A stretch of 64,000 bases of DNA, from positions 14,053,059 to 14,117,058 of the forward strand of contig NC_049990.1 in NCBI RefSeq assembly GCF_000003815.2, given 5' to 3'. Numbering within the stretch: position 1 is the stretch's first letter; each line of letters opens with the position of its first letter. The notes under the pieces are model-generated. The model was given only the letters and a program-made list of their open reading frames with translations. It had not been told where the DNA came from and did no database searches. Made by a program: the position numbers and the translations under genes. The DNA is from Branchiostoma floridae. Lineage: Eukaryota > Chordata > Leptocardii > Amphioxiformes > Branchiostomatidae. Positions 1,197-58,021 of the stretch are shown one piece after another.

Positions 1197-3420
1197 CGCG
1201 GAGTCTTTTGTTCAGTTTGATCGCGTCCTGGGTACTCGGCAACCTGCCTCTGCAACCTGCTAGTGAGATACGATAGAGTGCTGTGTAAAATATCTGGCGA
1301 GAAAAACAACTTCTAGACCAATTAGGAGTGCTGACGTGGTGAGTAAGAAAAAAACTTTGCATAATTGAACATCTTGCTTATTCACATGAGCTAAGCACCG
1401 CAAGGCATCTTGGTTCTTTTACTTTAGTGATGGCGGGGTTCTTTGTCTCCATGCCCTGACCATGTGCCCCCTTACCATGGAGAGCAGATCCTCTGGCAAG
1501 CATAAATGATTGACCGGTAATGCTATTTGGGGCATGTAACCATAGTTACAGGAGAAACTCAATACACGCTCGGGTGACACCCATGAAATTAAGATAGTGC
1601 GGCCTTACCAAGGCTAATGCTTGTTGGTAGATTTTTTCACAGATTTTAAACATATTGCCACATAGATTACAATTATGGTAATTTTGCCAACTGAAAATTT
1701 GTTGTTGATTAGTACTACATAAAAGTCTAGGGGATTGGAAAACCAGCTTTGACCTCTTACTCTGTTCTGCAAAATTTGAAATTAAGCCTCATCATCATTA
1801 CAGCAATAGGACCGGGATGCCCGACATTCATTTCGAATAATGTAAGATGTTCGGATATGCAAAGTTTCTCACAAGACACGTCAACACCAATACTCCTAAT
1901 CAGTCTGTTATTCTTTTTTCTCGCCACAGATTTTACACAGAATTCTAACTAGCAGCATTTGGATTCGACAGTAGTGTAATGGCTCTTTTATTGCTGTAAA
2001 TGCTGAGTTTTAGTAATATCATTATGTGACATATCTGCTTGGTTTACCCACTGCCAATACTCTAACTGGACCCCTTTTAAAATTTTTCATATAGATGTTG
2101 ACAGGTCGTCATGATTTTTGATATGTAGATACCATACATAACGAAATACAAATGATTTAAATCAACAGCTAATTTGCATACTTAATGAGGAATGGTTATA
2201 AATCCACTGCAGTGTATGATAGGGCTTTCACACTTGTCACATATGTAACTGAGAAACAGAGAAATGTCAATAGACACTAACAAGCTAAAGCCCCCTGTCA
2301 TCATTTGCTATTCGGTCAGGCCATCTGGTAGAGACTACATGATTTAAACAAAGCACTATAAATGCTACCCTTGAAAGTATCACAACAGTGAAGTGTTCAT
2401 AATTTCATTGTCACTTTGTTCAATGTTTTTGGTAGCGTTTGTGGGTCTGAGAGTAACACACGTTCATGCAGTCGTTTGCTGTAGGGGTATGTACTCTTTA
2501 GTAATGCATGAATAAGACCTTTTTGAATAAAGGCATGATTATGGGGGCACACCCCAGTTTATTTGGGGTTTCAAATGGAGGCGGCACACCCTGAAGTCTA
2601 GCGACCATCTCTTCCAGGGAATTATCCTGAAGCAAAATAACTGGTTATGGGGTCAGAGGATATTCCTTCAGCTACAAGACCAACTGAGTTTCGATCCTTC
2701 AACTTCTTTAATTTTGAAAAATTATAGGGAAAAACCATTATTTTCAGGTCAAAAATGATGCACAAAATCGGGCATTTTCGCATTGGATAAAACAGATTTT
2801 TCCGGCAAGCACGACCAATACTGTCAGAAAGAGGAAAGTCTAAAGAGTAATCCAGCCAATTATGAAGAAAATTCTAGTACTGCAGTTTTTTTAATCATCC
2901 AAGACGCGCGGCATTGCAACTTGGCTTAACACAGCGCTTCAGAGGCCAATCTAGGTCACGAGCCTAATCACATTCAGGCGTAGGAATATCCCGGAAGTAA
3001 GCCGCGGACCAAAACGCAATTTGCACCCAAAACACACCATTTCCTACGCTTTTCAGCCATGTGACCGTTTAATGTCATTTCGCAGGAAATAATGAGAAAT
3101 CTCAACTCAAACATAGACCCTCGGAAGCCTTTCGTCACTTTTTTGTCGCGCACTACCACGGACCCCGGTGGCGGAAGAACTGGGGTGTGCACCGTTATAT
3201 GGCGAAGGGATGTGTTCGTGGAACTTAAGTTTTGTAATGATATGCATATAAGTTACTGTTTTATTAGTATATGGGAAATATTTTGACAAGTTTTGGTCAG
3301 TAATTAAAAGCCCCCCCTACGACAAGTTTCTGAACTGCACAGAAATAAGCACCTGTTTGTGTTGTTTTGAAAATAGGGATTCATAATGTTACCGTATGGC
3401 AGTGAACTGAATGACCGCGC
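1197..3420. other. Non-coding, no gene seen
   Basis: This stretch is AT-rich with only short chance open frames. I could not identify exons, RNA genes or a complete mobile element here. Confidence 0.45.
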
Positions 3421-5092: not shown

Positions 5093-7520
5093 CTACTTTG
5101 TTTTGGGCGTTATGATCTCCACGAACTCTTCATATTGGATGACGCCATCACCATTCTTGTCCGCAATCTGAAATATCGAAATTCACAGCCCATAAATTAA
5201 GTTAAAAAGTACTGAATACCTGGTAAACACAAATTGGGAAGCGAATTTCCACTTCACTCAGAGGATAATAAAATCATGGCTTCGGTTATAAGGGACGTTC
5301 CTCGTTCTTCGTCGAATGTCTGAGGAAGGCCACACCTCGAACACATTAAAGAAAGAAAAAGAACCGTTATCGAAGTGATGGGGTTCATGCCGGTGTGAAG
5401 TACTCAAAGAAATCTATCTGGGTTGCAGCATGTTAGGAGATTCGAACGCAGAACATCTGTGTTCTGGGCCAAGCACTTTACCAATACACCACCGGTGTCA
5501 CCTGGGATAAATAGTAATCTAAAAGTTTTTTTGCAGGACAATATTACAGCAATTACTTATCATACAGTAAAAAGTAAGGCATTAAAACTGGGGGCAGAGC
5601 ATGACAACGTCTGTACAGGTTATAACAACTAGATTCTGCCACTATTCCATCCTGACCAATATATATTTTTCGGTCATATTTTTAGAAGTCAAACGCAAAC
5701 TATCTAGATATTGTCAACACTAGTATTCCAATAGGCTTCATGCATAATAATAGTTATCACGAATAATTGTTACATGCATATTTCCAATCTGGTTTGTACC
5801 ATATACTTGCAATTAGCATACGGGCATGGACTTGCAAATAAACTTTCTCATATTTAATCTTGTAGTTTACCTTGACCATGAAGTCGATGTGCTTATCGCT
5901 GTGCACCATACCAATGGATTTTATGGCCTCTTTCAGCTCTTCTTTGTCCAAGACACCATTTCCATCCTAAAAAACACATATTACTTATTTTTGTGTGCAA
6001 AGCTGATATTTCAATGAGCTTGGACTATTGGCAACAAATTGTAGCGGCGATTTTGCGTATTGTTTTGCCAATTTTCACCTACGGACACAGTGATGTGCGA
6101 TACACGAGTGAAGTACGTGACCTCGACAATAAATTGTCCTCACCTGAAATGTCATACCGTCAGTTTCCGCCTTAAAATTGTATTAATTTTTCAAATGATT
6201 TTTTTTCAAGTGATTTTATCTTTAAAATGATCTTATTGAAAGCGTGTTAATAATGAAAAAAGTTAAAATGATAAAAATTTAGTTAAGAGGGACTTGCTGT
6301 GATCCATTGGAAACATTTTGTCAACCCATTCGGCCTACGGATATACAGTAACAGTCTACAAAAACAATGTTTATATTGTAAGACAATTGATATTAATCCT
6401 TGCACATTTTGCATATATTCTTAAGTTTGTGCATGCCACGGAAAGAAAAATTCCCAAAGACCCAAAAAGGGCATTTCAGGAATGCATCACCTTGTCATGC
6501 TTTGAGAATGTCTCTTGTAAGAATTTCGGATCGGGTGTCATCATTTGTTTGAGGAAGAACATCAAATTCAAAAACTCCTCAAAGTCCAGCATGTTGTTTT
6601 CGTCCAGATCAAACGCTACCAGAGATTGCTGTAGTAAAACAATGAAAACAAAAACAACTAGATGGTCATATTTGCACCATATGCACAATTAATATGATAC
6701 TTTGTTTAATAATGTAAAAGTGAATTTTAGCTTCTTAGGTCACACTGATTTAATTTGTTGTTTCTCGAATTTTTTTACAAAAACATTGGGTCGGTCGAAA
6801 AAAGTTTTTTTTTTTTTTAATTTCAAAAATCGGGGGTAGGAGATATCGGACAAGAAAACCTAAAGTTTTAAAGTTTGAAGAAAAGTTATAAAAGTACTGT
6901 CCAAAATAGGCACGTACAGTTACTGAAATTTGAGGCCCTTAGTTAATTTGAGAAAGGAGAGGCAGTGAATTTTTGTCAACACAAGGTGTGGCCATCAATC
7001 AAAAAGTTTGTCTTCTTAAATCGGAAAAAAATAAGGTCGGGAAATCCGAGAAACAACAAATGAAATTGGTGTGACCTTACAAACATGTATAGATTATGTA
7101 AATATGAAATAAACCTTTATAATTAAATGGCATTCACCAAAGTACGCACACAGCATCAACTAGTCTGTTAGAGAATACGAGCTTTAACTAAAATAGATTG
7201 CCACAATAACAGAAATATATTATAACTTTCATTTTGGGTATATGGTCTTCCAACTCTTTTTACTTGCCATATTTTGTGATGGTAAATGGATCAATTAAAA
7301 ATTATGTTTCAAGATGTGTATATACTAACCAGAGTTGAACAAGTATGTTCTTTACCTTGAGAGCTAGGTCAGAGGGCAAAGGTTTGATCCCGACAGACGT
7401 CATCGCCTTCCCCAGCTCACGTGACAGGAGGAATCCATCTTTGTCTTTGTCAAGCATATCAAAGCATCTCTTGAACAAAGCCTTCTGTTTCTCATCAAAA
7501 TTTGGGTTGCCGGCAGCCAT
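5093..7520 (-). CDS. Calmodulin-like protein with four EF-hands (4 exons)
   Basis: Joining exons 7520-7356, 6628-6491, 5966-5871 and 5167-5093 (all phase-0 GT-AG joins) gives a complete 157-residue protein from ATG to TAG. EF-hand loops in order are DKDKDGFLLSRE (about residue 24), DLDENNMLDFEE (about 62), DKDGNGVLDKEE (spanning the exon 2/3 join) and DKNGDGVIQYEE near the C-terminus. All four have Asp at loop position 1 and Glu at position 12, so all four may bind calcium. Loop 2 lacks the usual Gly at position 6. Length and spacing match the calmodulin/troponin C group, but the sequence is clearly diverged from true calmodulin. Such proteins are cytosolic calcium sensors that bind target peptides; the target here is unknown. 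An acceptor-like ttacag lies just before the ATG, so a non-coding 5' exon further upstream is likely. A tRNA-derived SINE and a MITE sit in the introns. Confidence 0.9.
5270..5507 (-). mobile_element. tRNA-derived SINE
   Basis: On the minus strand, beginning near 5507, a tRNA-like head is visible: an A-box-like tract (tggtgtattggtaaagtgct) followed about 40 nt later by a B-box (gttcgaatc, plus-strand position about 5440). A non-tRNA body with a GTGTGGCCTTCCTCAG-type segment follows. It lies in the last intron of the EF-hand gene, in the same orientation. The 3' boundary is approximate and no target-site duplication was verified. Confidence 0.6.
6735..7079 (+). mobile_element. PIF/Harbinger-type MITE, copy A
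   Basis: A 339-bp element (6738-7076) flanked by TTA on both sides, the 3-bp target duplication typical of PIF/Harbinger. The termini are inverted repeats: the left begins GGTCACACTGATTTAATTTG, and the reverse complement of the right begins GGTCACACCAATTTCATTTG. No transposase is encoded. The internal sequence aligns with copy D at 56314-56602 in the opposite orientation. It sits in intron 1 of the EF-hand gene. Confidence 0.8.
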
Positions 7521-7619
7521 TCTGTAAATATGAATTATTTATATATCCATATCTTAAGTGTAAGAAAATATCGACACAAGAATATAGAAAAATAATGGAT
7601 TCTAGTTAGCGTAAGGTTT

Positions 7620-7853
7620 CACCGTAACGCTACCGCTGTTAAACCACATAGAAAACCAGTTCACACGTGACCCTTACCGGAGGATAATTGTATAACCTCT
7701 AATATTTACCAACTACAGAAAGGCAACCTTGCTATGCTAAGGTTGCCTTGATTTGCAACGCTATCGCTGTTAAATTACTAAGACCAGTTGAGCCAGTTCA
7801 ACATGTGACCTTTTGCAGAGGGCGTATGACCTCTGATATTTACCCTCCACGGG
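7620..7853. repeat. Degenerate tandem duplication, offset about 133 bp
   Basis: Segments at about 7620-7712 and 7755-7853 share blocks in the same order: aacgctaycgctgttaaa, ccagttc, a CATGTGACC-like block, and acctctratatttacc. The duplication lies upstream of the EF-hand coding region, with a short hairpin between the two copies. Confidence 0.65.
7720..7749. repeat. Perfect 11-bp hairpin
   Basis: The arms aaggcaacctt (7720-7730) and aaggttgcctt (7739-7749) are exact reverse complements with an 8-nt loop. The hairpin separates the two copies of the surrounding duplication. No downstream T-run or gene suggests a terminator role. Confidence 0.85.
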
Positions 7854-8428
7854 TAAGTAACCTCGCCGACAAACTCCCAACCACACAGGAATTAGACCCA
7901 AGCATGGTCAGGACTTTCACTGGGTCAGAAGACCATTGTCGGTTATGTATGACCTTGGCTGAATATCGATAGGTGATGTCGATGATACAAAGCCTCTGTT
8001 TTACTTTGCTATATATAGGATGATGCCTTAGGGCAAGTCTGATACAGATTGACAACGTTTAAAATTCATATGCATCAAAATGGTTGCACAAACATTTCGT
8101 TGGTATTTTGATAATGCCTTCCGCTTTATTTCTATTAATCACACGTCAGATTTGGGCAAGATGCATTTTAACAAGAATTCACCGCTGCTCAACATTACGG
8201 CCATGCACCGCCCCTTCAAGGCCATTAATAGTGCAGTAGTCATTTAATCGACCCCAGCAAACGCATGCCAAATAGACATGTTTGGAGTCATAAGTCAGAT
8301 TATGAAGTATCAAATTGTACCAGTTACCAGCTACACTCCGTTTGCCAAATGATACTTTTCACAAATAAACTTCCTTAAATTCAATCAGAGGAGCTATTTG
8401 AAGCTAGAATACGATTCCATGCTACTAT

Positions 8429-9120
8429 CAACATAGCGCCGATCTTGAGTAGGGAGTGGTCGGGAGTAACATATTGGGACAAATCCGTATATATTCCAGG
8501 GGCTTTCAGAACCCAGTTATAAAACAACGCCAACCGAACTTCTTACCTGTCAAGACTAATTGAAATCTCTGTAGGCTTACAATCTGAAGTAGACAAGCAG
8601 TTTAGGTCGATTCTTCCCAAGACGGGCGTAACCTTTACGGTGAACTTTCCAGGGCGTAATTACACAGCTCATGGGTCAGTGACTAATCAGCAGTTAGGCA
8701 TGTTGTTGAACGTTTGCGAGGCCATTCCGTTTGTTTCATTAAAAAGTAAACAAATTAGAAAGAAAACATTTAAGATAATCTTGGAGTTTGAATAGGATGA
8801 ATTCTCGGTTATTTTCAACACAGCGCCAATCATAAGTAGGGAGTGGTCGGGAAAAATCTCAATGTTTTACAGGGGCTTTGCGAACACGGTAATAAAGCAA
8901 CATCTACCTCAAACCTTACCTGCGAAGATAAGTTGATATCCTGTAGGTTTATAATTTGAAGTAGACAAACAGTTTAAGTCTGTTCTACACAAGACACACG
9001 TAACCTTTATGGTGAACTTTTCAGGGCGTAATTACACCGCTTAAAGGTCAGTGACTAATCGGTAGTTGACCACGTATTAAACGCTTTCAAGGCCATTCTG
9101 TTCGGTGAATGTTTGATAAT
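8429..9120 (-). repeat. Tandem duplication (about 388 bp unit) with candidate 5' splice donors
   Basis: Two diverged copies start at 8429 and 8817. Shared blocks include caacayagcgcc, agtagggagtggtcggga, ggggctt, gtagacaa-cagttta, ggcgtaattaca, gtcagtgactaatc and aggccattc. On the minus strand each copy contains a good splice donor in the same place (CAG|GTAAGAAG near 8545 and CAG|GTAAGG near 8920). The EF-hand gene downstream on this strand begins its coding exon behind an apparent acceptor. Duplicated alternative first exons or promoters are therefore possible. A diverged mobile element in two copies is the alternative. Confidence 0.55.
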
Positions 9121-12831: not shown

Positions 12832-13124
12832 AAGGAAGTTCCTAAGAAATTCCAAGAGCATACGGGCCCTGCTAGCATTTGTTGCAAGCGAATGGAGGAG
12901 TGACAAGTATACAGAGAAGCTATCAGGGAAGACACTGTCTGTAACGTGTGAAGAAATATGTTATTAGTTATCCCCCAGAAAGGTGAAAGTAATATGAGCT
13001 TGGGTCAACACAAGAAGAAGCCGACACCCGTCTGATGCTGCATTCACTCCATGCCGCAAAGTCCAGGGCACTCAATGTCACAACGGACGACACTGACGTC
13101 ATAGTCACGGTCACGACTATTTAA
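12832..13124 (+). pseudogene. Fragment of a large uncharacterised family (EEADTR/DTDV block)
   Basis: Two stretches read in family order: FLRNSKSIRALLAFVASEW with YTEKLSGKTLSVTCEEICY, then STQEEADTRLMLHSLHAA from 13005 and TTDDTDVIVTVTTI ending at a stop at 13122. From memory, the combination W/FL-x-NK, VTCEE, EEADTR and DTDV marks a large, repetitive, poorly characterised protein family common in cnidarian, mollusc and lancelet genomes and probably carried by mobile elements. At least one stop or frameshift separates the pieces, so the copy is broken. The acidic motifs suggest a metal-dependent nuclease-type fold, which is speculation. Confidence 0.5.
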
Positions 13125-18164: not shown

Positions 18165-21100
18165 ATATTTATTAGTTACTTACTTAATCCTCTTTGCCCC
18201 TTCTGGAGCACAGGGCCTCGGTGAGATGCCTCCACCTTCCTCGGTCTTTGGCGGTTGTCTTAGCCTCCTGCCACGAGGTTTTTGCATGTTGTAGGTCCTT
18301 CATGACTCCTCGCCTCCACGACAGCCTAGGTCTTCCTCTTCGTCTTTTGCCTTGGGGGTTCCATTCTAGGACTGCCCTCGTAATGGATGGTGGGGGTTTT
18401 CTTAGTGTGTGTCCAATCCACCTCCATTTCCTGCGCCTTATGGTGACCTCCACAGGTTCCTGGCCAGTTCTCTCCAGGAGGTCATGGTTGCTGATCTTAT
18501 TTGGCCACCAAATGCCAAGGATGTAGCGGAGTCTTACATTGATGAAGGTTTGGAGTTTCTTAATGTTGGCTTGTGTTAGGCCCCAGGTTTCACAGCCATA
18601 TAGTAGGATGGACTTGACATTGGATTCAAAGATACGTAGCTTTGTTCTGAGGGAGATGTTCCTGGCCCTCCAAACTGGTCTTAGTTGGACAAAGGCAGCC
18701 TTTCCCTTCCCTGTGCGGGCTTCAATGTCCTTGGTCGCACCTCCGTCACTGCTGATGACACTCCCCAGGTATGTGAAATCCTTCACTGTCTCCAGCTCTA
18801 TTCCTCTGCAGCACACAGGTTTGGCGTTCCCCACTGTTTTCACCCTCATCTCTTTAGTTTTTCCTGCGTTGATGATGAGTCCCACTTGGCCTGACTTGTG
18901 TTCTAACCTCTGGGTCTTCTCTCTCATCTGGCTGATGGTATGGCACAGAAGAGCAAGGTCGTCCGCGAAGTCTAAGTCATCTAACATGTCCGTCAATGTC
19001 CACTGAATTCCTGTCCTGGCATCTTTGGTAGTTTCCCTCATCACCCAGTCCAGTGCAGTTATAAATAGCAGCGGGCTCAAGAGGCACCCCTGTCGCACTC
19101 CGGTGGTCATGTTGAAGGGCTCTGTCAAATCTCCTTCGTGGGATACTTGTGCTTGGAAGTTGTTGTAGAAGACTTTGATCATGTTGATGATCTTTGGGGG
19201 GATTCCATAGTGGGCAAGGATGTTCCATAGTGATGTCCTGTCGAGTGAATCAAACGCTTTTTCATAGTCCACAAAAACAGCATACAGTTGTGAATTGAAT
19301 TCTGTTGATTGCTCCACTATGACTCTTAGGGTTGCGATCTGGTCGCTACAAGATCTATTTGCTCGGAAGCCTGCTTGATTATCTCTTAGTTTGGTCTCCA
19401 TTGCGTTTGCTGTTCTATTGAGGATGATCCTGCAGAGTAGCTTGCTGGCAACTGAGAGAAGCATGATGCCACGCCAGTTTTTACATTGTGTCAAGTCACC
19501 TTTCTTTGGCAGCTTTATAATAGTACCTCTCTTCCAGTCTGTGGGTGTCCTCTCTTCTAGCCATATTCTGCTGAGTAGTGGATGCAGAGCTTCAACAGAA
19601 AGGTTACCTGCCTCTTTCCAGGCCTCTGGAGGGTCCTGCGGCTTTCCCGTTCTTGAGTGAAGAGATGGCCTTGCGGATCTCTATCTTGCTTGGTGGGCCA
19701 GTGCGAATATCGAGCAATTCTATTGTGGGCTCAATTTCCGGGTGATTCGGTGGAGGTGTGCGATTGAGAATTTCTTTAAAGTGGTCTCTCCAGCGTTCCA
19801 TTTGTTGCTCCTTTGTTGCAAGCAGTTTACCATTCTTGTCTTGTACTGGCTTGTTTATTTGTCTTCTTTTCCCACTCAGTGTTTTGGTGATTCTATAGAG
19901 GGTTTTCATATCCTGCTTTGACGCGGCCTCTTCTGCCTCGGCAGCCTTGTCTGAGATCCACTTCCTTTTATCTCTCCTGCAACTTTTCTTTACTTTCCTG
20001 TCAGCTGAGTTGTACTGCTTCATGGCATTTGCCTTCTGGTTCCTGGTTCTGCAGTTCTCGATGTTTGCTTTCAGTTTGCGTCTTTCCTCCACTGTCTCCC
20101 ATGTGCCCTCGCTCATCCATTCCTTCCTCTCCCGCTTTACCTTTCCCAGAACCTCTTCACATGTGCTTGTGTACGCTTCTTTGATGGTCGACCATTCGGT
20201 TTCTATTTCATCATCATCTAACTCTTCCTCATTATCCGAATTGTAACGTAGAACATCGAAGCGGTTGGCCAAGGTGAGTACAAACTGCTGTTTTATATCC
20301 GGGTTTTTTAGCCTCTCCACATTGTACTTAGTAGTCTTCTGAACTTTCTTTCTGCAAGCGGCGAGACGTACCCTGCAGGCAGCCATAAGTAGATGGTGGT
20401 CCGAGCCAACATCTGCACTCCTCTTTATTCTGCAGTCTTGTAGGGTTCCGCGCCACCTTCTAGAAATTGCAATGTGGTCTATTTGGTTCTCGTAGGATCC
20501 ATCAGGTGATCTCCAGGTCACTTTATGGCTCTCCTTATGTGGGAACAAGGTGCCTCCTATAACCATGTCGTTCACAGAGCAGAAGTCGACAAAGAGCTCT
20601 CCATTGTGGTTCATGGTCCCAACTCCGTGCTTCCCCATCACACCCTCATTACCACTGTTTGCTGATCCCACTTTGGCATTCATGTCCCCCATGAGAATAG
20701 TGATGTCCCTCTTCTTACGCTTTGCCATGGTGGCTTGCAGCTGTTCGTAGAACAGTTCCTTATCCGCTTCACTTGCATCATTTGTGGGAGCATATGCTTG
20801 TATGATAGTTGTGTCCTGGCATCGAGACGTGAACCTAGCAGTGATTATTCTCTCTGAGACCGGTTCCCATTCCATCAGACTCCGTGAACTTTCCTTAGAC
20901 ATAATGGTTCCTACTCCTCTTACATGTGTTGGATAGTCTTCTGGGTGCCCAGAGTATATAATGGTTTCTCCGCTCTGTAGGGTAGTCTTGCCGCTTCCCA
21001 GCCATCTTGTTTCACTTAACCCAGCTATTCCTATTTTAAGACGCTTCATTTCAGCTGCTACTTGATGAACTCTTCCGGCTTGGTAGAGAGTTCTAACATT

Positions 21101-21493
21101 CCAGGTTGCAATGTTAGTGCGGTATTTGGGGGACAAAAGCTTCGGTCGGTTAGACGTCATAGGCTGTCCTCCTCCAGAGGTGTCTTCAAAACTATTAACA
21201 CGCCTCTTCCCGCCTTGAGTTGATCCTCTAGCAGGTTGAGACTTTCTCACTGAGGTTTTCGTAATCGCGTGCAGCATAGCTGCTATCCACCTATGGGTGA
21301 TTGACCCAAGGGTTTCTCTTGGTCCATCCTTTGGCGACTACCCAAGCTCCACCCCCTCATTCGAGGTTACAGAGTAGGAATGTGGCACCTACCCCGGGAC
21401 TAGGAGATTGGTGCATTCGGGCTCTCACACCACGGCAAGGCGGATGGACCGGGAGCCGATGTTAGGGCATCCCCGTGAGAGATATTTATTAGT
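18165..21493 (-). mobile_element. RTE-type non-LTR retrotransposon, near full length
   Basis: The element spans 18177-21481 (3305 bp) on the minus strand. It is flanked by a perfect 12-bp target-site duplication, atatttattagt, at 18165-18176 and 21482-21493. It carries about 204 bp of 5' UTR, one endonuclease plus reverse-transcriptase reading frame (split by one frameshift) and an extremely short 3' end. The stop codon TAA lies inside a TTAAGTAAGT tail, so only 7 nt separate the stop from the insertion site. Short 3' UTRs with tetranucleotide tails are known for RTE elements. Perfect duplications and a nearly intact frame indicate a recent insertion. Confidence 0.92.
18184..21277 (-). pseudogene. 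RTE endonuclease/reverse transcriptase, one frameshift
   Basis: From ATG at 21277 the frame encodes an apurinic-type endonuclease: ATWNVRTLYQAGR, LSETRW, GDMNAKVG, DHIAISRRW and SDHHLL are all present. A linker rich in K and R follows, then the start of the reverse transcriptase at KNGKAAGP. Near 19632 the frame shifts; the next codons fit the family again if about 10 nt are missing. The other frame then continues through WKRGTIIKLPKKGD, NWRGIMLLS, the QAGFRANRSCSDQI block, FVDYEKAFDSLDR, GVRQGC and the catalytic LDFADDLALL. It ends with the usual RTE C-terminus (RRRKWRWIGHTLRK and a W-rich tail) at TAA 18184. All catalytic motifs survive, so a single small deletion is the only visible lesion. 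Confidence 0.88.
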
Positions 21494-22018: not shown

Positions 22019-25000
22019 CTATGTTTTAATCCAACAGTGTAAGTTATCTTTAAAATACTGCCGCTTCATGATGATATCCCGGTAGTTTCCTGCTACACTT
22101 CCTCCTGAGCGGAACTTGTTGAAGTCCTTGTTTCGAGTCTGTATGTGGTCTATACGCACTCCCTCACACGCTGCAATTCGTAGTCTTCCCATAGCATCCA
22201 CAAAGAACTCTGCAACATATTGCAGAAACATATAAGTTCATGGTAAATTTACTGCCTTTATATTTCACATAAACTATTCTGCATTATTAGATGATGCAAT
22301 AGTTTTCACGAATAGGCCAATGCGTCTCTTTTTCATAGAATATTTTCAATGAGAAAACACGCAGTTTATGAATGGCTTCCGCGACTTTGAACGTACAGTC
22401 TTTCTTCCAAATACCAGCAGGGTGAGATAGTTGGTACAAAAAACACAAATACAAAAAAATTACAGTTAATCTTCTCGTGCTATAATTTGCAGACTATTGC
22501 CATCTTTAAGAAAGTGAAAGGAAAAAAATAGAGGATTATGCAAGGCATTGAAATCACAAATTTCCACGACAAGGGTACTAATATACGCAAAATTATACTT
22601 TTCTGAATAAAGATAAGATGAAAATAAATGTGTATATCGCCTACAGTCATTTTTCATTCAGGTAGCCCCTGTTATATCCAGATGTCGGCAGTATCCAGAA
22701 CACGGCCCGAGTGGGAGAACGCGTCCTGGATATCCAGAGCACGGCTCTAACAGGACGCATCCTGGATAAGCAATGGTGCCTATCCAGAACGTGTACATGG
22801 GGGTATAGCTTCCTGTTTTCGAGAGAGGAGACTATCTTGTTTTTTGTGGTCAGGAGGCCGACATCTTTGTATCTCCGCACAAGAGGTTTATGTAGAGTTT
22901 ATTCAGCTCCGTAAACTTTTAATAAAAGCATACCCCTCACCTGTGTGTCCATAGCGAGAGTAGGTAGGATCAAAGCCCACCGCGCGGACTGCGTCCGTTC
23001 TTCCCATGAAGAAATTGGTAACCTTCGGGGTCAGATAACAGTGAGGGTAGCCGGGAACACTGCGGTAGTGTCCACTGCCTTGGAACAGACAGTCGCCATG
23101 TTCGTCTCCAGGTAGGATGGACAGTTTGGAGTACATGAGCTGCTTGTTACCGACCCTACCAGATACCTACACCATGGTCGAAATCAGAATGGCAGAGAGA
23201 TTAACAATTTGCAAGAGTTGTACAGTATGTTTATTACAGCAAATTGAATTACATTAACATAATATTTTTTGGAAAATAAATTAAAACAAAAAAAACAATA
23301 ACATATTAACTTTTTAAAAGTAAACTTCAATGATTTTAAAACATTTTTGTTCATTTCAGTTTCAATAACTCAAAACGAAGAATGCTAGAATGGAACGTAG
23401 TACCGTGCATTACATATGGAACATGATTCTCGGTAGGAATTTTATACAAAAATCAGACATAATTAATTATCTATACAAAAATAATACAGACAAATTATCT
23501 ACAAGAACTCAATAATTTCTGATTGTTGCCTGTTTTCATAGCCAGCTGTACCTACTTTAATATTTACTAAAGCTAAGAAATTGCATTTTAAATTTGGTCT
23601 GGCTCATCGAATCCATGTTTGCGAAGTCTTTTTGTTAACGTCATTACATGAGATCTTTGGACTAAAGTTTGCTTTTGTTGAATGTAAAAACTCCTTGGAT
23701 TCTCTTGCACACGTGCCTGGTGCTATAAGACCCCTGTCGACAAATAAACTTACCAAATCCAGATTGGTGTTGTCGAGAACATCAACAAAATTCTCTAACT
23801 TTGTCTCGTTGATAAACACATAGTCGTCGTCCACCCACAAGAAGTACGGAGTGGTTACTTGTGACAAGGCAAGATTCCTGCCACCGAACCAACCCTGCAA
23901 AAAGTGATGTTTGAAAACAGATATTAAAATTATTATCATGGGGGTTGAAAGCCATTTAAAGCTTTCATACATGTACAATTTTTTCGAAGTAACTGTAAAA
24001 TACATCTATTGAGTCAGACTCAGATTCTCTAACTGGGAAGATGTCAGTTTTTGGCATTGCATACATGTATAAGGCGTGGCCAAGAATTTGCAAACTAAAC
24101 AGTCTGGCTTACCGCTCCAAACGGCATGACGTAATGATCCGTGTTTTCCGCCTGCAGATCTTCCACAGGGCGGCTGTCGTCTGCTATGACTATCCGGATC
24201 TTCGGGTAAAACATCCGGGTACTGTTGATGAGAGCCTTTACGGACGGGTATCTCAGAAAAGTCTTAGTGATGATTGTCACTTTATTGTTGATGTCGTTAT
24301 CTAAGAGGGAAAACAGTCAGGTATAGCCTTCAAATATTTTGTATACCATAGTAACAATACTAACCTGTCTTTTATACTTTACAAATTCCTTATAAAAAGA
24401 CGTTTGCATTGTTTTCAAATTACTGATTTTGGGAATTTTGTGCGATTTTGGACAAGCTACACCATAATATGCAATGTCACGTTGTGGTGTGCTTACCTTA
24501 CTATGACATACAGAACACAAACCTACAAACAATAGATAACTTTTTGAACATAAAAATATTAGTCAAAATGGAAAACCTTTTCCTGGATAGTAGAGGCGTG
24601 GAGACTTCCTGACCCGAATACGGATAGGAAATATCGCCTGATAATCCTGGTAACTAAAGTACACTGAGTGAAAAAAAAGAATAAATAATCATGACACGGG
24701 TGCACAACAACAGAACAAATTATTCTGAATTCTAACATAAAATCTAAAATATTGCAAGTCTTATCATCATCATCATTGCAAGTCTTGATGAAGTCTCAAA
24801 TAATTGTAATTGTTATCGGGTGGGTCGACTACATCCTCGTCGCAGCCAGAGACTGGAGCAACCAAAATTCGACGCTGATTCAGGTGATCTTAATACGACC
24901 ATAATTGCTTAATTTGGAGCTTTAAGGCCCCTTCACACGACAGCAAGAAAGACCCGGAATGACGTCAGAATTAAAATCCTTTTCTATTCCTAGGAATTCG

Positions 25001-41148: not shown

Positions 41149-43888
41149 TAAATATCAGTGGCTGACAAACAATGGGAACAAGTCTTATCATTGTTAATTT
41201 TTAATCACCCGGACACTAACCCACAAACTGTGATTCCACTACATAAGCGGGTTAAGATTCTTCAGTGAATACGTCGTCATGGTTGTTGAGTCAGTGAATA
41301 CGTCTTCGGTTAGTTTTATAAAATTTATAATAAGTCAAAGACTGAACGTAGTTCGAACATTGTAGCTATATAGTTGTTGAATTCACGAACGTCCCTTCGA
41401 ATTTTGTGTCTGGTGCACTTTCGGGGGGGGGGGGGGGGCGGTGGCAAGGACTCCGACAAGACTACTAGTTGGTAATGGTATAAATGACCTGACAATGATG
41501 TTTAACATGATTTCATTCTGTCGACTCAATGTTTCTTCACACGTTTTCGTTAAGCTTATCTCGTTTGTTTTTAGTGTGTCCGACGTTTGCCATGCAAACA
41601 AACGCGCTTACTGTTTTGGCGATGTTACGATGACCCACTTTTAACTTCTAACACATAAGTGCCGTAATCTCTTGTTTTTTAAAATTTGTAGACTTCCTAC
41701 TTTTTGCTTACCTTCTTAATGTGTTATAGTCACTTGACTGCTTTCTTTAGGCTCATCCCGTCTACAGTTAGCGAGACACTTTGCCCGAAGTTGACAATGC
41801 ATGCAAATGTGCTCTTTTTTTCGGCGACGCCATTTTTGTTGACATTATGCCTATTTTCAGCTTTTCGTACTTAAGCACCAAAATATCTGTATCCCAACAC
41901 GGCATAGCCATTGAACTTTTGGTGTACCTTAAATGTGTGATATCACCCCACTGCTTCGTTACCCTTATCTCGTCTACTGTTTGCGAGAAATTGCGCCCGA
42001 TGTTGGCCACACTAGCAGACACCGCTGTGATTTCTATCGGGTTATACAATATCTTTGGGATGTCGATCTCTCTCGATTTCTGTCGATTTACCTAAGTGCG
42101 GAAATTCGTATGACGCAGAATGTCTTTTATGCATTCCATGGCTGATGATACAATTCTCAGTTGGTAATATACATTATTGTCATTTTGTTTTATGTTTGAT
42201 ATTAATTGGGAAAAAAGTCAACCAAAGTCCCATCGAAAAGCTGAAATCATGCAAAGCTTACTGTAGCACGAAGTCCGAATAGTGGTGCATGGTTTAACAA
42301 AAGAATCATTGTCTTGAAGACAGATGGGTTAATTTGTCCAAAAGTCGGGTGCAGTTATATCCCGAAAAGTATAATCTATCAGAACATAATACCCGTCTCT
42401 GGAGTGGAATGCCCCTTAAATACACTGGGTTGTTGACACATGGTGTAACTGGGTCGCACAGAGTAAAACAAGTTGCATAAAGCACAGGTTATGTCCAAAT
42501 GGCATGATCCGGAGTTGCCATTCGGCCATGAAGAAAGAAATGACCAGTACAAACTATAGTTTCCGTGGTTTGAATATCTTGTAGACAGATTGACAAATCA
42601 TTTTGCATACCTTTCAGATAAATTGATAAATCGTGGCAACGTACCATAAACATTAAAACGCTATGCAAACATGGCAGAAAGACTAGGACTTCACACGGCC
42701 ATTGCGACACATAGTTGCTTGAAAAAATGATTGAAATTGTCTTACCAATTGACGGTTCAGAAGTCAGAAGTCCTTACAAAGCTGTTAGGTTAATTTTTTG
42801 TGAACTTTGGCCTCTTTCGTTGCGGCAAACTGACGTGGTCACATGAGGATGTTGACCAGGATAATGTTTTTCTACCGTGCTTGCGCAACCTCATGGGTAA
42901 GTCGTTTTTGAATTTCATTCGTAGACGTATTGAATCTAGTGTGTACTTTTACGAACGATGGTTATGCTTCTGGGCAACGGAAAGTACTTTAACTTTGGAT
43001 TTTGCAATTGCCTAATAATTAGACCACATCTGTTATCACCCAGTACAAACCTAAAATGTAAAATAAAAGTAGGTACATGCGGTTGGGTACTGTACGTACA
43101 AATGAAAGTAGAGGTGTGTATGTGCAACCATCACTGCGTCACAAAATGTAAAGTATGGGCGCCCTGAACCATGGGTAACTGTGACAGCGTTTCTGCTGTC
43201 CCGCTGCAACCCGTCGACATTCCCGATGCAACCGCTCGACAGTCCCGCTGCACATTCAATGTTGGTCGCAAGGTGGTGACAATATATGTCATTCTCGCTG
43301 ATACGTGTCAAAAGATGCCGAGTATCAGAAACCTGGTCAAAATGTCCATTCTGTATGATCTTAAAACAGACGAGGAAACAAGAAAGTAAGCAAGTTTATT
43401 TTTTTTAAATAAAGACTAAGAGCTAAAATGGGCAAACAGACATTACATCATCGATATTTCATATCCGCTTGATGGAAACCTGGCTTCAGGTACCGATCAC
43501 ATCCCAGGTGTTACAGGGAGCGCCTATGAAAGTCATGAGTGAACAAGAAACATATTTAGCTTTATTCTGTAGTTATGATTAAGGGTAGTGACTTTATTAA
43601 CTTATCATTAATTTTCCAGATCGATGCCCCGATCAAAGCCCAGGTAATGCAAATGGCGGCTAAAGACGACATGCGGGACGTGCTAGAAGCAATCATGGCA
43701 GAACGAAAGGCAATTTATAAAGTGGTCAAAGAATACAACATTTTCAAAGAATTTTATATGATAGTGACAATGAATTACTTTGTGGCAAATATGAGCCCGC
43801 ATATAGACTTATATGATTTGATGAACTTGGAAGTCTGCTCTTATCTCAGCTAGGCAGACTTGATAAAGGATGTGGGATTGAGGCAGCC
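41149..43888. other. Non-coding, weak ancient repeats
   Basis: No gene recognised. Segments at about 41750-41830 and 41960-42040 share cttatctcgtctac, gcgaga and gcccgatgttg-like blocks, hinting at an old duplication with an offset near 210 bp. An open frame at 43575-43853 has no recognisable domain. An exon-like stretch at about 42800-42895 ending in a possible GTAAG donor cannot be supported further. Confidence 0.35.
41423..41438 (+). repeat. Homopolymer of 16 G
   Basis: An uninterrupted run of 16 G. Such tracts are prone to slippage and sequencing error, and can form G-quadruplexes. Confidence 0.9.
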
Positions 43889-44540
43889 ATGAATGATTAC
43901 ATGGCAAGCTGGCACAAGACATGTATGCTTCAGTATAACTCAACAATGCTGAAAAGGGCCAGAAAAAGAGCAGCATCTAAAGAAAATGACGTGTCTACGT
44001 AGAAGGTCAAACGAACAAGATCACACTTGGATTTTGTTAGTCCCAGTCCGAAGGAAGCATGCTTTCTTTGTAAGAAAACAGGAAAGGTAACTCTTCATGA
44101 GTCGACAGCACTTCAACTAAATGCCGCATCCCTTGGACACGACAAAGCACGTGCACTACCAATTTTCAATGCAATGACTTGGGGTGACACCGTGGTCATT
44201 TGCTGATCTCGGTAAGACATCAGCATGGGCAACATGGAATGCTATGTCAACCATTTTAGATGCATTCCTTGCGTTAGCCGAATTAAGAACCTACATCATT
44301 CAGTTCCCGAGACTTCCTCCCATGCAATCGAGACGTTTGCTTGTTATCTTACATGTATTACAAAATAATCCACAGCGACAAATGTTAAAACCAAGGAGGA
44401 AGAGCGTGGAGCCTATTCCAGTCATTCCAATGCTTTGTTGTGCACAGCGAATGAATCGGACTTGCTTTCAAGCCCGAAGGGGGTCGCATACCTAACGCCA
44501 CAAAACCTTGCCCAGCGCTACCATCGCCAATAGAGAGAGT
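43889..44540 (+). pseudogene. Internally deleted copy of the EEADTR/DTDV protein family
   Basis: From 43889 the frame reads MNDYMASWHKTCMLQYNST and LKRARKRAASKEND, passes one TAG at 44000, then EACFLCKKTGKVTLHEST. It is followed immediately by LGHDKARALPIFNAMTWGDT. Another frame continues FADLGKTSAWATWNAM and LDAFLALAE, and a third gives IETFACYL and STATNVKTKEE. From memory, the WHKxC...CFxC...LHE part is N-terminal in this family, while the LG...ALPxFHAxTGCDTxSxFAGxGKxxAWxTW part is C-terminal. Several hundred residues that should lie between, including the EEADTR/DTDV block seen at 13.0 kb, are absent. The copy is therefore an internal-deletion derivative that has also decayed. Confidence 0.55.
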
Positions 44541-44657
44541 TTGGCTTCAGATAGATGACGGGTCCTATCGGCCAATCTAGACCTCGCTTCCAGAAGCTTG
44601 TCAAGTATGTCAAGAACTGATAGCCTACAAGTGAACCAAAGGGTGCGATAAGCGATG

Positions 44658-45032
44658 TAGGGCCATACCAATTTAATTTCTTGGTTCACGGATTCGCTCG
44701 CTCCTATTTTTTGGAGAAAAAAAATAAAAATAAAAATTACCACTCAGCAAATTTTCACCATTAATGAAGCCATTCACGAACTTTCTGGTGTAGCAAACAT
44801 AAAAACTGACACTACTTTTGTAATTTTCAATGAACAGGTGCTGTTAATGTACAGTAATAGTGTTTCTGTACTTTTTTCAAGCTGAAAACTTTTTATTCTT
44901 TATGTTTTGGATTAGCCCTTACCTTTACCCCAACCATTTTACAAGTTTTATTTTTATTTTTATTTCGCCCTCTCTCTCCATATTTTTTATGAAAAAATCC
45001 GTGAACCAAGAAATTAAATTGGTGTGGCCTAA
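44658..45032. mobile_element. PIF/Harbinger-type MITE, copy C
   Basis: A 369-bp element (44661-45029) with inverted termini. The left starts GGCCATACCAATTTAATTTC and the reverse complement of the right starts GGCCACACCAATTTAATTTC; both continue TTGGTTCACGGATT. Flanking trinucleotides are TAG and TAA, consistent with a decayed 3-bp TWA duplication. No coding capacity. Confidence 0.78.
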
Positions 45033-46457
45033 GTGCAAGAAGAAAAGCCCCCGGTGCACTGCACTGTGTCTGTGTGAAGGCGACTGTACATAAATCGTCA
45101 ACCAAGCCTACATTTTCTCTTCATCTTTATTCTAAACTCTTTCCTAGACTCGCCACTATTTTGCGTTTGTGATAGATGATGACAATTATGATAAAACCCA
45201 AACAGTGCTTGGTAAGGTAAATAAACAAGCTATAACTTTTAAAAATAACATTGCACCCACTGTCGTAATATATGACCGCATTGCGTCAGATTGTTTTTCC
45301 CTAAAGAAAAGTTGGAGTTGTGTTGAAAGGTGTTACAGCAAACATTCTAGCATACACTATTTTCTTCTGTTTTGTTTATTTTTCCTGGAGAAAGTAGGTG
45401 AATCTAAGAAGAAGAGGCTTTATTGACAGAAAGTAATAATGCAGTAGAAGGAGGAGACGTCAGCAAAACGAAACGCGTTTCGTTTTAAAAAGCACTGGCA
45501 TTACATTATTACAAAAACATTAACATCGTACTTTGACTACTTATTCAAAATGATTTACTATTCGGAAGGTTGAAACAAAATGCCGAGGAAGCCATCCTTT
45601 TAGGAAGATATGTCATACGGCTTGTGTACACAGCAGATCCATTCGAGACATTGAGTGGGAAGAAATACAAACTTACTTGGATGAAATTTACAGCAAAGAA
45701 TCTAACAACGATTACCATAAAGCCAATGATAAAGCAATATATTTTGTTGTCTGAATAAAGGAGGGAAGCAAAAAGCCAATACAGAGAAAGCCATTATAGA
45801 TTCAGGACAAGGATATTACCACACTAAAAAGCTGTGCGACTGCAATGAAAGCAATTGTCTAAGACAGCCTTCACCTAGCTAATGGACCAGAAGAAATATT
45901 CCACAGCGTGCAGAAATGCCCAAATAGGTACAAGTAAAACCATGAGAACCCTACGTCAAGTCCCATGACTAAATTTCTTTATGTGGCACCACCTCGCCAC
46001 TTATTTCCTGTCAGAAATATTCATCCGCATTAACTTATTTATTGTCTATTTACATTCGATAATCTAAAAGATATTTTCGTTATATGTCAGCTAACTTTAT
46101 ATTTGTAAAGAATAAATATTGCTAAAAAAATTGCAATCAGTGTTGCTGAATCGTTTGCCCTCTAAAAGATTTTACGTGCACTATGTTTTGTCTGCACTCT
46201 TCTACACTGTGAGATACGGCTTCCCACCATTGAGTATATTTGAAGCTGTATGACGCAATTTTCCCACATACAAGAAGGAGTGGCTTCTGGCATAGGACGT
46301 TAGAAAACAATTTACGACCAGAGGCTATTCTACATATAATTGTCGCTTAGCTTTTTTTTTTGTTCACTGGATCATATGTCTAATTCGTAGTCATACAGGT
46401 ACCGTACCCATACGTTGGGTAATAATATAAAGTTACACGCTTCCAGTTTTTATATTC
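45033..46457. other. Mostly non-coding; decayed ORFs
   Basis: Open frames at about 45169-45426 and 45570-45758 (start LKQNAEEAILLGRYV) are longer than most chance frames here but show no recognised domain. They may be further pieces of a dead mobile element. A 22-bp palindrome is listed separately. Confidence 0.35.
45465..45486. repeat. Perfect 22-bp palindrome
   Basis: The half-site aaaacgaaacg is followed directly by its reverse complement, with no spacer (45465-45475 and 45476-45486). It could bind a dimeric protein or be chance. No promoter or gene is next to it. Confidence 0.9.
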
Positions 46458-56605: not shown

Positions 56606-56647
56606 AACAGCTAAATTTAAGTGTGCTGTATTTTACACAGGTCTGAC

Positions 56648-58021
56648 ATGGCGTCAGCAGGCTGTGGGTCTTTAACTGACATTCCTCGGGACAACAGCCA
56701 ACTGCTGAAAGGTAGTCCAACTACTGACATGAAGACCTGTTATGATGAGTTTAAGATATTCGTGTCGAAACACAAGCATGAGGAAACTGACATACAAGGA
56801 GAGGATGCAGATGTAACAGAGCTCAACAGAGATGACAAAACCCAACTAGAAGATACTCTCTTTGCCAGTACTATGTGTGGAGCTATAAACCTGGAAACAA
56901 ACACAGCTAACCACACTAAGGAAGAGCCCGATACCAGTGGATATCAGGCATCTAATGATTCTAATCTCTCTCAGCCAATGGAGGCAAGTGCAGAAGAGAA
57001 ACCGTACAAAAGAGCGTGCAAGCATAGCCTCTCCAAACATGTTGAAATACATACAAGAGAGAAACAGTACATGTTTAAGCATTGCAACTATTTAGTCAAC
57101 GAGAAAAGAGAACTGGACAAACACAAATCTAGTCATGCCCGTGAGAAACCCTACATGTGCGATGGGTGTGGATACAAAACAGCAAACAAGAGTCATTTAT
57201 CTAAACATATGAAGATTCACACAGGAGAAAAGCCGTACAAGTGTAATCAGTGCGATTATTCAGCAGTTTGGAAGTTATCATTAGAGTTACACATGATTAA
57301 GCATACCGGTGAGAAACCTTACACGTGTGAAGAGTGTGGAGTCAAAACAGTAAGCAGGAACAATCTATTAAGACATATGAAAATACACACTGGACAAAAG
57401 CCATTCAAGTGTCCCCAGTGCGACTTTTGCACGGTTTGGAAGCAAAGCTTGGATTTACACATGGCTAAACACACCGGTGAGAAACGCTACATGTGTGAGG
57501 AATGTGGTCACACTACAGCCCACAAGTCACGACTTTCCAGACACATGAAAATACATACCGGAGAAAAACCGTACACGTGTGACCAGTGCGAATATTCAGC
57601 GAACCAAAAAATACACATAGACAGACACAAGGCTAAACATACTAATGACAAACCCTACACCTGTGAAAAATGTGGCTACAAGGCAGTGGACAAGTTTGGC
57701 CTATCCACTCATATGAAGGTGCATAGGATCAAGACTACAGGTGGCCAGCCGTACAAGTGTGAGCAGTGTGACTTTCGCTCTATGTGGAAACAAAGCTTTG
57801 AGGCACACAAGAAACTGCATACAGGAAAAAAGCCATACAAGTGTGATCTCTGCGACTACCGAACTGCATGGAAAAGCAACATAGATATACACATGGCTAA
57901 ACACACTGGTGAGAAGCCCTACTCGTGTGATCAGTGTGAATACAGGTCAGGTTACAGGTCTGGTCTCAAAAGTCATATGAAAGTACATACAAAAGGGAAG
58001 CAACTTAAGGGTAAACGTTAA
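56648..58021 (+). CDS. C2H2 zinc-finger protein, ten intact fingers
   Basis: An acceptor (tttacacag at 56640) precedes the ATG at 56648, so the coding part is a single terminal exon of 457 codons with a non-coding 5' exon upstream. Residues 1 to about 115 are acidic and Ser/Thr-rich with no KRAB, BTB or SCAN domain. Two damaged fingers follow (KPYKRACKHSLSKHVEIH, shortened; and YMFKHCNYLVNEKREL, first Cys lost). Then come ten regular C-x2-C-x12-H-x3-H fingers joined by TGEKP-type linkers. Fingers 7 and 8 are separated by a longer linker (RIKTTGGQ). The tail is basic (KGKQLKGKR) and could serve as a nuclear signal. A sequence-specific DNA-binding transcription factor in the nucleus is expected; the target is unknown. 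AATAAA lies 176 bp after the stop. Confidence 0.93.
   Translation: MASAGCGSLTDIPRDNSQLLKGSPTTDMKTCYDEFKIFVSKHKHEETDIQGEDADVTELNRDDKTQLEDTLFASTMCGAINLETNTANHTKEEPDTSGYQASNDSNLSQPMEASAEEKPYKRACKHSLSKHVEIHTREKQYMFKHCNYLVNEKRELDKHKSSHAREKPYMCDGCGYKTANKSHLSKHMKIHTGEKPYKCNQCDYSAVWKLSLELHMIKHTGEKPYTCEECGVKTVSRNNLLRHMKIHTGQKPFKCPQCDFCTVWKQSLDLHMAKHTGEKRYMCEECGHTTAHKSRLSRHMKIHTGEKPYTCDQCEYSANQKIHIDRHKAKHTNDKPYTCEKCGYKAVDKFGLSTHMKVHRIKTTGGQPYKCEQCDFRSMWKQSFEAHKKLHTGKKPYKCDLCDYRTAWKSNIDIHMAKHTGEKPYSCDQCEYRSGYRSGLKSHMKVHTKGKQLKGKR

Follow-up and report, generated by a model that had tools for sequence, protein, structure and literature searches.

The window analysed here (64,000 nucleotides of contig C12, positions 14,053,059-14,117,058, in the 513-Mb genome of Branchiostoma floridae) contains at 43803-45093 (+) a broken coding sequence whose segments align, in order, with a long family protein encoded in the same genome. 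This copy is a dead, internally deleted remnant, an ordinary transposon relic, and we consider it likely that it descends from a cut-and-paste DNA transposon, probably of the Academ superfamily (AcademX).

Structure and Decay of the Window Copy

Residue numbers used below refer to the 1,467 aa open frame of the related locus L038, which terminates ahead of the cysteine-rich tail of the protein, and the tail is that of the near-identical locus L039. The features recognised in the window are as follows:

43803..44122, +, N-terminal part, corresponding in its aligned portion to residues ~94-180 of L038; holds WHKTC, CFLCKK and LHEST
44123..44128, +, approximate internal-deletion junction, joining residue ~181 to residue ~1329; placed from the alignment ends
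44129..44492, +, C-terminal part: LGHDKARALP, then a frameshift, then SAWATWNAM; residues ~1329-1380 and less conserved sequence past them
44518..44657, +, first part of the cysteine-rich C-terminal tail, in the third frame and with two stops; match to the L039 tail
44660..45029, strand not applicable, MITE within the relic; from inverted repeat ends and empty-site reconstruction
45031..45093, +, last part of the C-terminal tail, KCKKKSPRCTALCLCEGDCT followed by a stop; match to the L039 tail
12999..13121, +, separate relic with the EEADTR...DTDV block, residues 1257-1296 of the family protein

Protein alignment places in this order residues 94-180, 1329-1350 and 1353-1380 of L038, followed by the tail as in L039, with residue 180 falling at 44122 and residue 1329 at 44129. 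Some 1,150 residues of a protein of ~1,500 aa are gone from the interior, and the first ~80-90 residues are also missing at the truncated 5' side. What is left is disabled by stops and frameshifts, including an in-frame stop at 44000-44002, a frame change around 44178-44203 and the two stops in the tail. The alignment with L038 upholds the initial annotation, made from the letters alone, in which N-terminal motifs were described as running into C-terminal ones at 44.1 kb with the middle block missing, and the motifs named there are located within 43889-43999 (WHKTC), 44003-44203 (CFLCKK, LHEST and LGHDKARALP) and 44178-44492 (SAWATWNAM).

Each segment was compared with shuffled sequences, and these tests rule out chance motifs as an explanation of the relic. 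The N-terminal piece scored 112 against L038 (shuffles 34.5, sd 4.8; none of 300 as high), and the pieces lying on residues 1329-1350 and 1353-1380 scored 40 (one of 300 shuffles as high) and 65 (none of 300), respectively. Against the L039 tail, the piece at 44518-44657 scored 53 (none of 300 shuffles as high) and that at 45031-45093, taken alone, 44 (three of 300).

The window pieces are 32-43% identical to the L038 protein, which places the window copy in another, decayed branch of the family. At the DNA level, L009 resembles the relic from 43803 onward (80%), and both L008 and L009 match its N-terminal piece only. The ends and target duplications of the window copy itself were not found, and a scan for the terminus shared by the near-identical copies, tolerating three mismatches, gave no occurrence in the window, L008 or L009. 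A genome DNA search with 43889-44540, in which three candidates were scored, gave no second copy spanning the junction of the relic. L008 additionally holds two copies of a block (2574-2861 and 3066-3353), 80% identical in protein, that carry the EEADTR-like motif QEAETR and stand upstream of the N-terminal block, opposite to the arrangement in L038.

A MITE inside the Relic

The tail of the relic is interrupted by a MITE of 370 bp, with 34-nt inverted ends that are 97% complementary and with TA bordering it on both sides (44658-44659 and 45030-45031). Upon its removal in silico, the flanks join as an empty site and the tail reads on as ...GCDKRC/KCKKKSPRC.... Since the flanks joined across the MITE give a continuous tail, the relic reaches 45093, past the 44540 at which it had been taken to end; the extent first proposed, 43889-44540, does contain the motifs, but the copy continues, MITE-interrupted, to ~45093. 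The MITE partly resembles L008 5313-5362 and L021 666-860, suggesting that it belongs to a repeated family.

The Block at 13 kb

The piece at 12999-13121 comes from another decayed member of the protein family, separate from the 44-kb copy. Its score against L038 is 86, which none of 300 shuffles reached, and 42.5% of 40 aligned residues are identical. The initial annotation had noted a separate copy of the middle block near this position, and such a copy is present, but it covers only part of the block missing at 44 kb and nothing ties it to the copy there. That it might be the middle cut out of the 44-kb copy is unsupported, the two being 31 kb apart and the clear match extending over only ~40 residues.

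Relatives in the Genome

A DNA search queried with the relic returned the relic itself and three partial matches (L005, L006 and L007; 74-88%), and a protein search with the frame of one partial match returned eight matches from nine candidates, four of them near-identical to one another (L038-L041; 98.7-99.7% identity wherever the alignment runs for at least 923 bp). The coding region is split into two frames in L039 and into three in L040, both extending to the tail; L040 has lost ~0.4 kb of it relative to L038, and L041 lacks the middle. None of the four near-identical copies holds a single open frame from the N-terminus to the tail.

Searching with the C-terminal region of L038 gave at least 17 matches from 33 candidates, comprising the near-identical copies, parts of others and further long frames. 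Four of these other frames, reported open for 1,462, 1,583, 1,516 and 1,516 aa, are 30-34% identical over the query, and an additional open frame of 1,212 aa matched along a shorter stretch. L059, for which 774 bases of the 1,583-aa frame were read, shares 34% identity with L038 and has the motifs IIDG, EEADTR, DTDV and TGCD. A blind search of 200 kb of contig C235 found no further copy of the family. Two outcomes had been named beforehand as contradicting a mobile family, full-length homologues without the intervening domain and single-copy, non-repeated members; neither appeared, the long relatives containing the block and the family being repeated in the genome.

Beyond this genome and in domain collections the family left little trace. 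Neither the L038 protein nor the C-terminal frame of L039 matched anything in Pfam, NCBIfam or the PDB, even at E 10; for L059, Pfam gave a single match, below threshold (YMR265C_C, E 0.092), and its matches to other pieces likewise stayed below threshold. Three pieces had no match in PHROGs, and no match was found in phages. A motif search gave no stretch in viral contigs and three stretches in bacterial genomes, the translations of which appear unrelated, and a shortened form of the motif occurred in ten viral stretches, none with a family match. Related-locus searches outside this genome returned no relative for two family queries, nor for FEN1.

Ends, Target Duplications, and Shortened Elements

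L038-L041 all begin at the same base, TAGTGGGGCAGATAAC, and their left flanks are unrelated. The copy on contig C7 (L041), an element of 4,989 bp, terminates in the reverse complement of TAGTGGGGCAGATAAC at position 8287 of the oriented locus and is flanked by TAA on both sides. Tandem repeats of 186 bp lie near the left end, and in L041 and L040 they are found again, in inverted orientation, close to the right end. Among the six insertions for which both junctions were read, target duplications are exact in four (TAA on C7, TAA on C12, TTT on C10 and TACT on C9), probable in that on C8, whose junctions were read by eye (ATT or AATT; three or four terminal bases of the right end are missing), and absent in that on C17.

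With 150 bp of the left end as query, at least 40 matches were obtained in the genome (73 candidates, 40 scored), which were sorted by hand, according to identity and strand, into 19 of left type, 17 of right type on the opposite strand and 4 internal pieces. Pairing ends on opposite strands, with the right ends on C17 and C8 extrapolated by 31 and 3 bases, yielded at least 17 elements with lengths from 3,384 to 8,804 bp; a length of exactly 5,562 bp occurs three times. The longest three correspond to L040 (C12, 7,647 bp), L038 (C8, 7,904 bp) and L039 (C17, 8,804 bp); the other 14 are shorter, starting at 3,384 bp and not exceeding 6,481 bp. A right end on C3 could be paired with either of two left ends (giving 5,253 or 6,481 bp), and a left end on C231 is unpaired.

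Three of the 14 short elements (C7, C14 and C9:10054206) are partly present among the C-terminal-region matches listed, and the remaining 11 are not among them, which fits a missing interior. L041, the sole short element read inside, has an internal deletion of approximately L038 positions 5632-8732, or residues ~247-1281; its junction differs from that of the window copy (247-1281 versus 181-1329).

Ends, duplications and identity show that the relatives have moved recently as DNA. Shared inverted ends, target duplications, near-identical copies and the deletion in L041 thus identify the family as a DNA transposon of the cut-and-paste kind, accompanied by deletion derivatives. The proposal that these are DNA transposons is thereby confirmed in the relatives, in which near-identical copies with shared termini, inverted ends and target duplications sit at unrelated sites. 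The further proposal of deletion derivatives holds for those relatives, among which shortened elements are common (14 of 17 paired), but multiplication in that form finds no support for the window copy itself, whose ends were not found; likewise, the inverted repeats and target duplications sought at copy borders were found in relatives and not at the window copy.

Putative Domains of the Family Protein

The N-terminal part of the family protein contains several cysteine/histidine motifs. The middle part is probably a transposase of the RNase-H fold (DDE), with candidate DDE motifs in L038 at residues 671, 701 and 893, chosen by eye. The C-terminal EEADTR...DTDV...TGCD block may be a nuclease of the FEN1/XPG type, followed by the cysteine-rich tail.

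The suggestion of a nuclease comes from the comparison of this region of L038 with human FEN1 (PDB 5zod), which scored 75 (shuffles 40.8, sd 6.7; none of 500 as high, and one of 1000 in a repeat run). In the register of this alignment QEEA lies on EAEA, SDTD on EDMD and GCD..GKGKKSA on GSD..GIGPKRA, so that the acidic motifs of the L038 protein stand in the same order and register as in FEN1/XPG nucleases. On the contrary, the likeness lies below detection by database search, and the divergent L059 fails the shuffle test, giving nothing above shuffles against FEN1 (446 of 1000 as high). Profile comparisons reached E values of 0.014 and 0.038, at probabilities no higher than 3% and 1%, and neither the nuclease region alone nor a three-sequence profile retrieved FEN1 relatives in the PDB.

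Placement of the Family and Alternative Readings

The earlier suggestion of an undescribed class of mobile element is not supported, and such a class is unlikely, since 3-4 bp target duplications and a possible FEN1/XPG-type nuclease fit Academ (AcademX). The nuclease of Academ elements is of the XPG type, and the possible FEN1/XPG-like motifs of the present protein are consistent with it. On its described traits, the family is probably a member of the Academ superfamily, within the AcademX lineage.

In the excerpted text of PMC10045372, which cites Kojima 2020 for AcademX, this lineage has target duplications of 3 or 4 bp, as have the present elements (TAA, TAA, TTT and TACT, with one of six insertions lacking any), and the difference among Academ lineages is related to the encoded helicase or nuclease; an element-encoded nuclease in AcademX would have its counterpart in the candidate nuclease of the present family. 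Academ itself goes back to Kapitonov and Jurka 2010, cited in an excerpt of PMC4455052. Large elements in invertebrates are a further shared trait, bivalve Academ elements averaging 5,565 bp according to the excerpt of PMC10294476. A whole-word search of the literature returned nothing that links Academ with XPG or flap endonuclease, and no description of the present family was found in the excerpts on Academ and Branchiostoma. KolobokP, as excerpted from PMC9587614, is comparable in that it occurs in Branchiostoma and combines a transposase with a second nuclease; it differs in that this nuclease is a His-Me finger endonuclease and its ends are 'LTDR', which we read as long terminal direct repeats, whereas the present family has inverted ends and its second enzyme would be FEN1-like.

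A separate new superfamily of DNA transposons, outside Academ and with a FEN1-like nuclease in its transposase, is improbable. It gains from the lack of Pfam, NCBIfam or PDB matches, and from the lack of any paper, in the literature searched, that connects Academ with XPG or flap endonuclease, the wording in PMC10045372 being simply 'nuclease', but the target duplications equal the values given for AcademX in that same excerpt, and the average bivalve element in the excerpt of PMC10294476 falls in a similar size range. We hold it to be just as improbable that the family represents an undescribed animal superfamily in which one large protein unites a transposase, a cysteine-rich tail and a flap nuclease resembling FEN1, and of which a single lancelet genome holds recently moved copies and many shortened derivatives. 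Much further from the evidence is a host gene family or processed pseudogene, for which there is hardly any room: the window copy, viewed alone, lacks ends and target duplications, but relatives inserted at unrelated sites share their ends, which are inverted, and show target duplications, and on these grounds it was rejected.

Two accounts of how the window copy lost its middle are about equally likely. It may have been a longer insertion that decayed and suffered an ordinary later deletion, as would suit its broken state, its unrecognisable 5' end and the failure to see any relative with the same junction, either in L008 and L009, which match at the N-terminal piece only, or in the genome DNA search with its three scored candidates. 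The prevalence of shortened elements in the one branch with paired ends (14 of 17) favours instead a derivative that transposed in its deleted form.

As a DNA transposon of probable Academ type, the family may be pictured as follows. In the readable branch the longest elements, of 7.6-8.8 kb, carry TAGTGGGGCAGATAAC in inverted orientation at both ends, have 186-bp repeats near these ends and encode a protein of ~1,500 aa. Such an element is excised and reinserted with a target duplication of 3-4 bp, and copies that have lost interior sequence but kept their ends can probably still be moved in trans, using protein from longer ones. The window copy would be either a deletion product of this kind or the result of a later loss of its middle, decayed since and then hit by the MITE. 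Because a repeated protein family that Pfam does not match is here part of a mobile element, counting such frames as host genes would inflate gene catalogues. Should the domain be confirmed, near-identical long and shortened copies within one genome would be a natural setting in which to ask what use a transposase has for a flap-type nuclease.

Other Features of the Window

Elsewhere in the window, two long overlapping frames at 18184-21337 (-), with endonuclease and reverse transcriptase domains, constitute a non-LTR retrotransposon whose frame is split. A frame at 23604-24005 (-) matches glycosyl transferase family 2 (E 2.1e-8), and one of 466 residues at 56621-58021 (+) contains many C2H2 zinc fingers.
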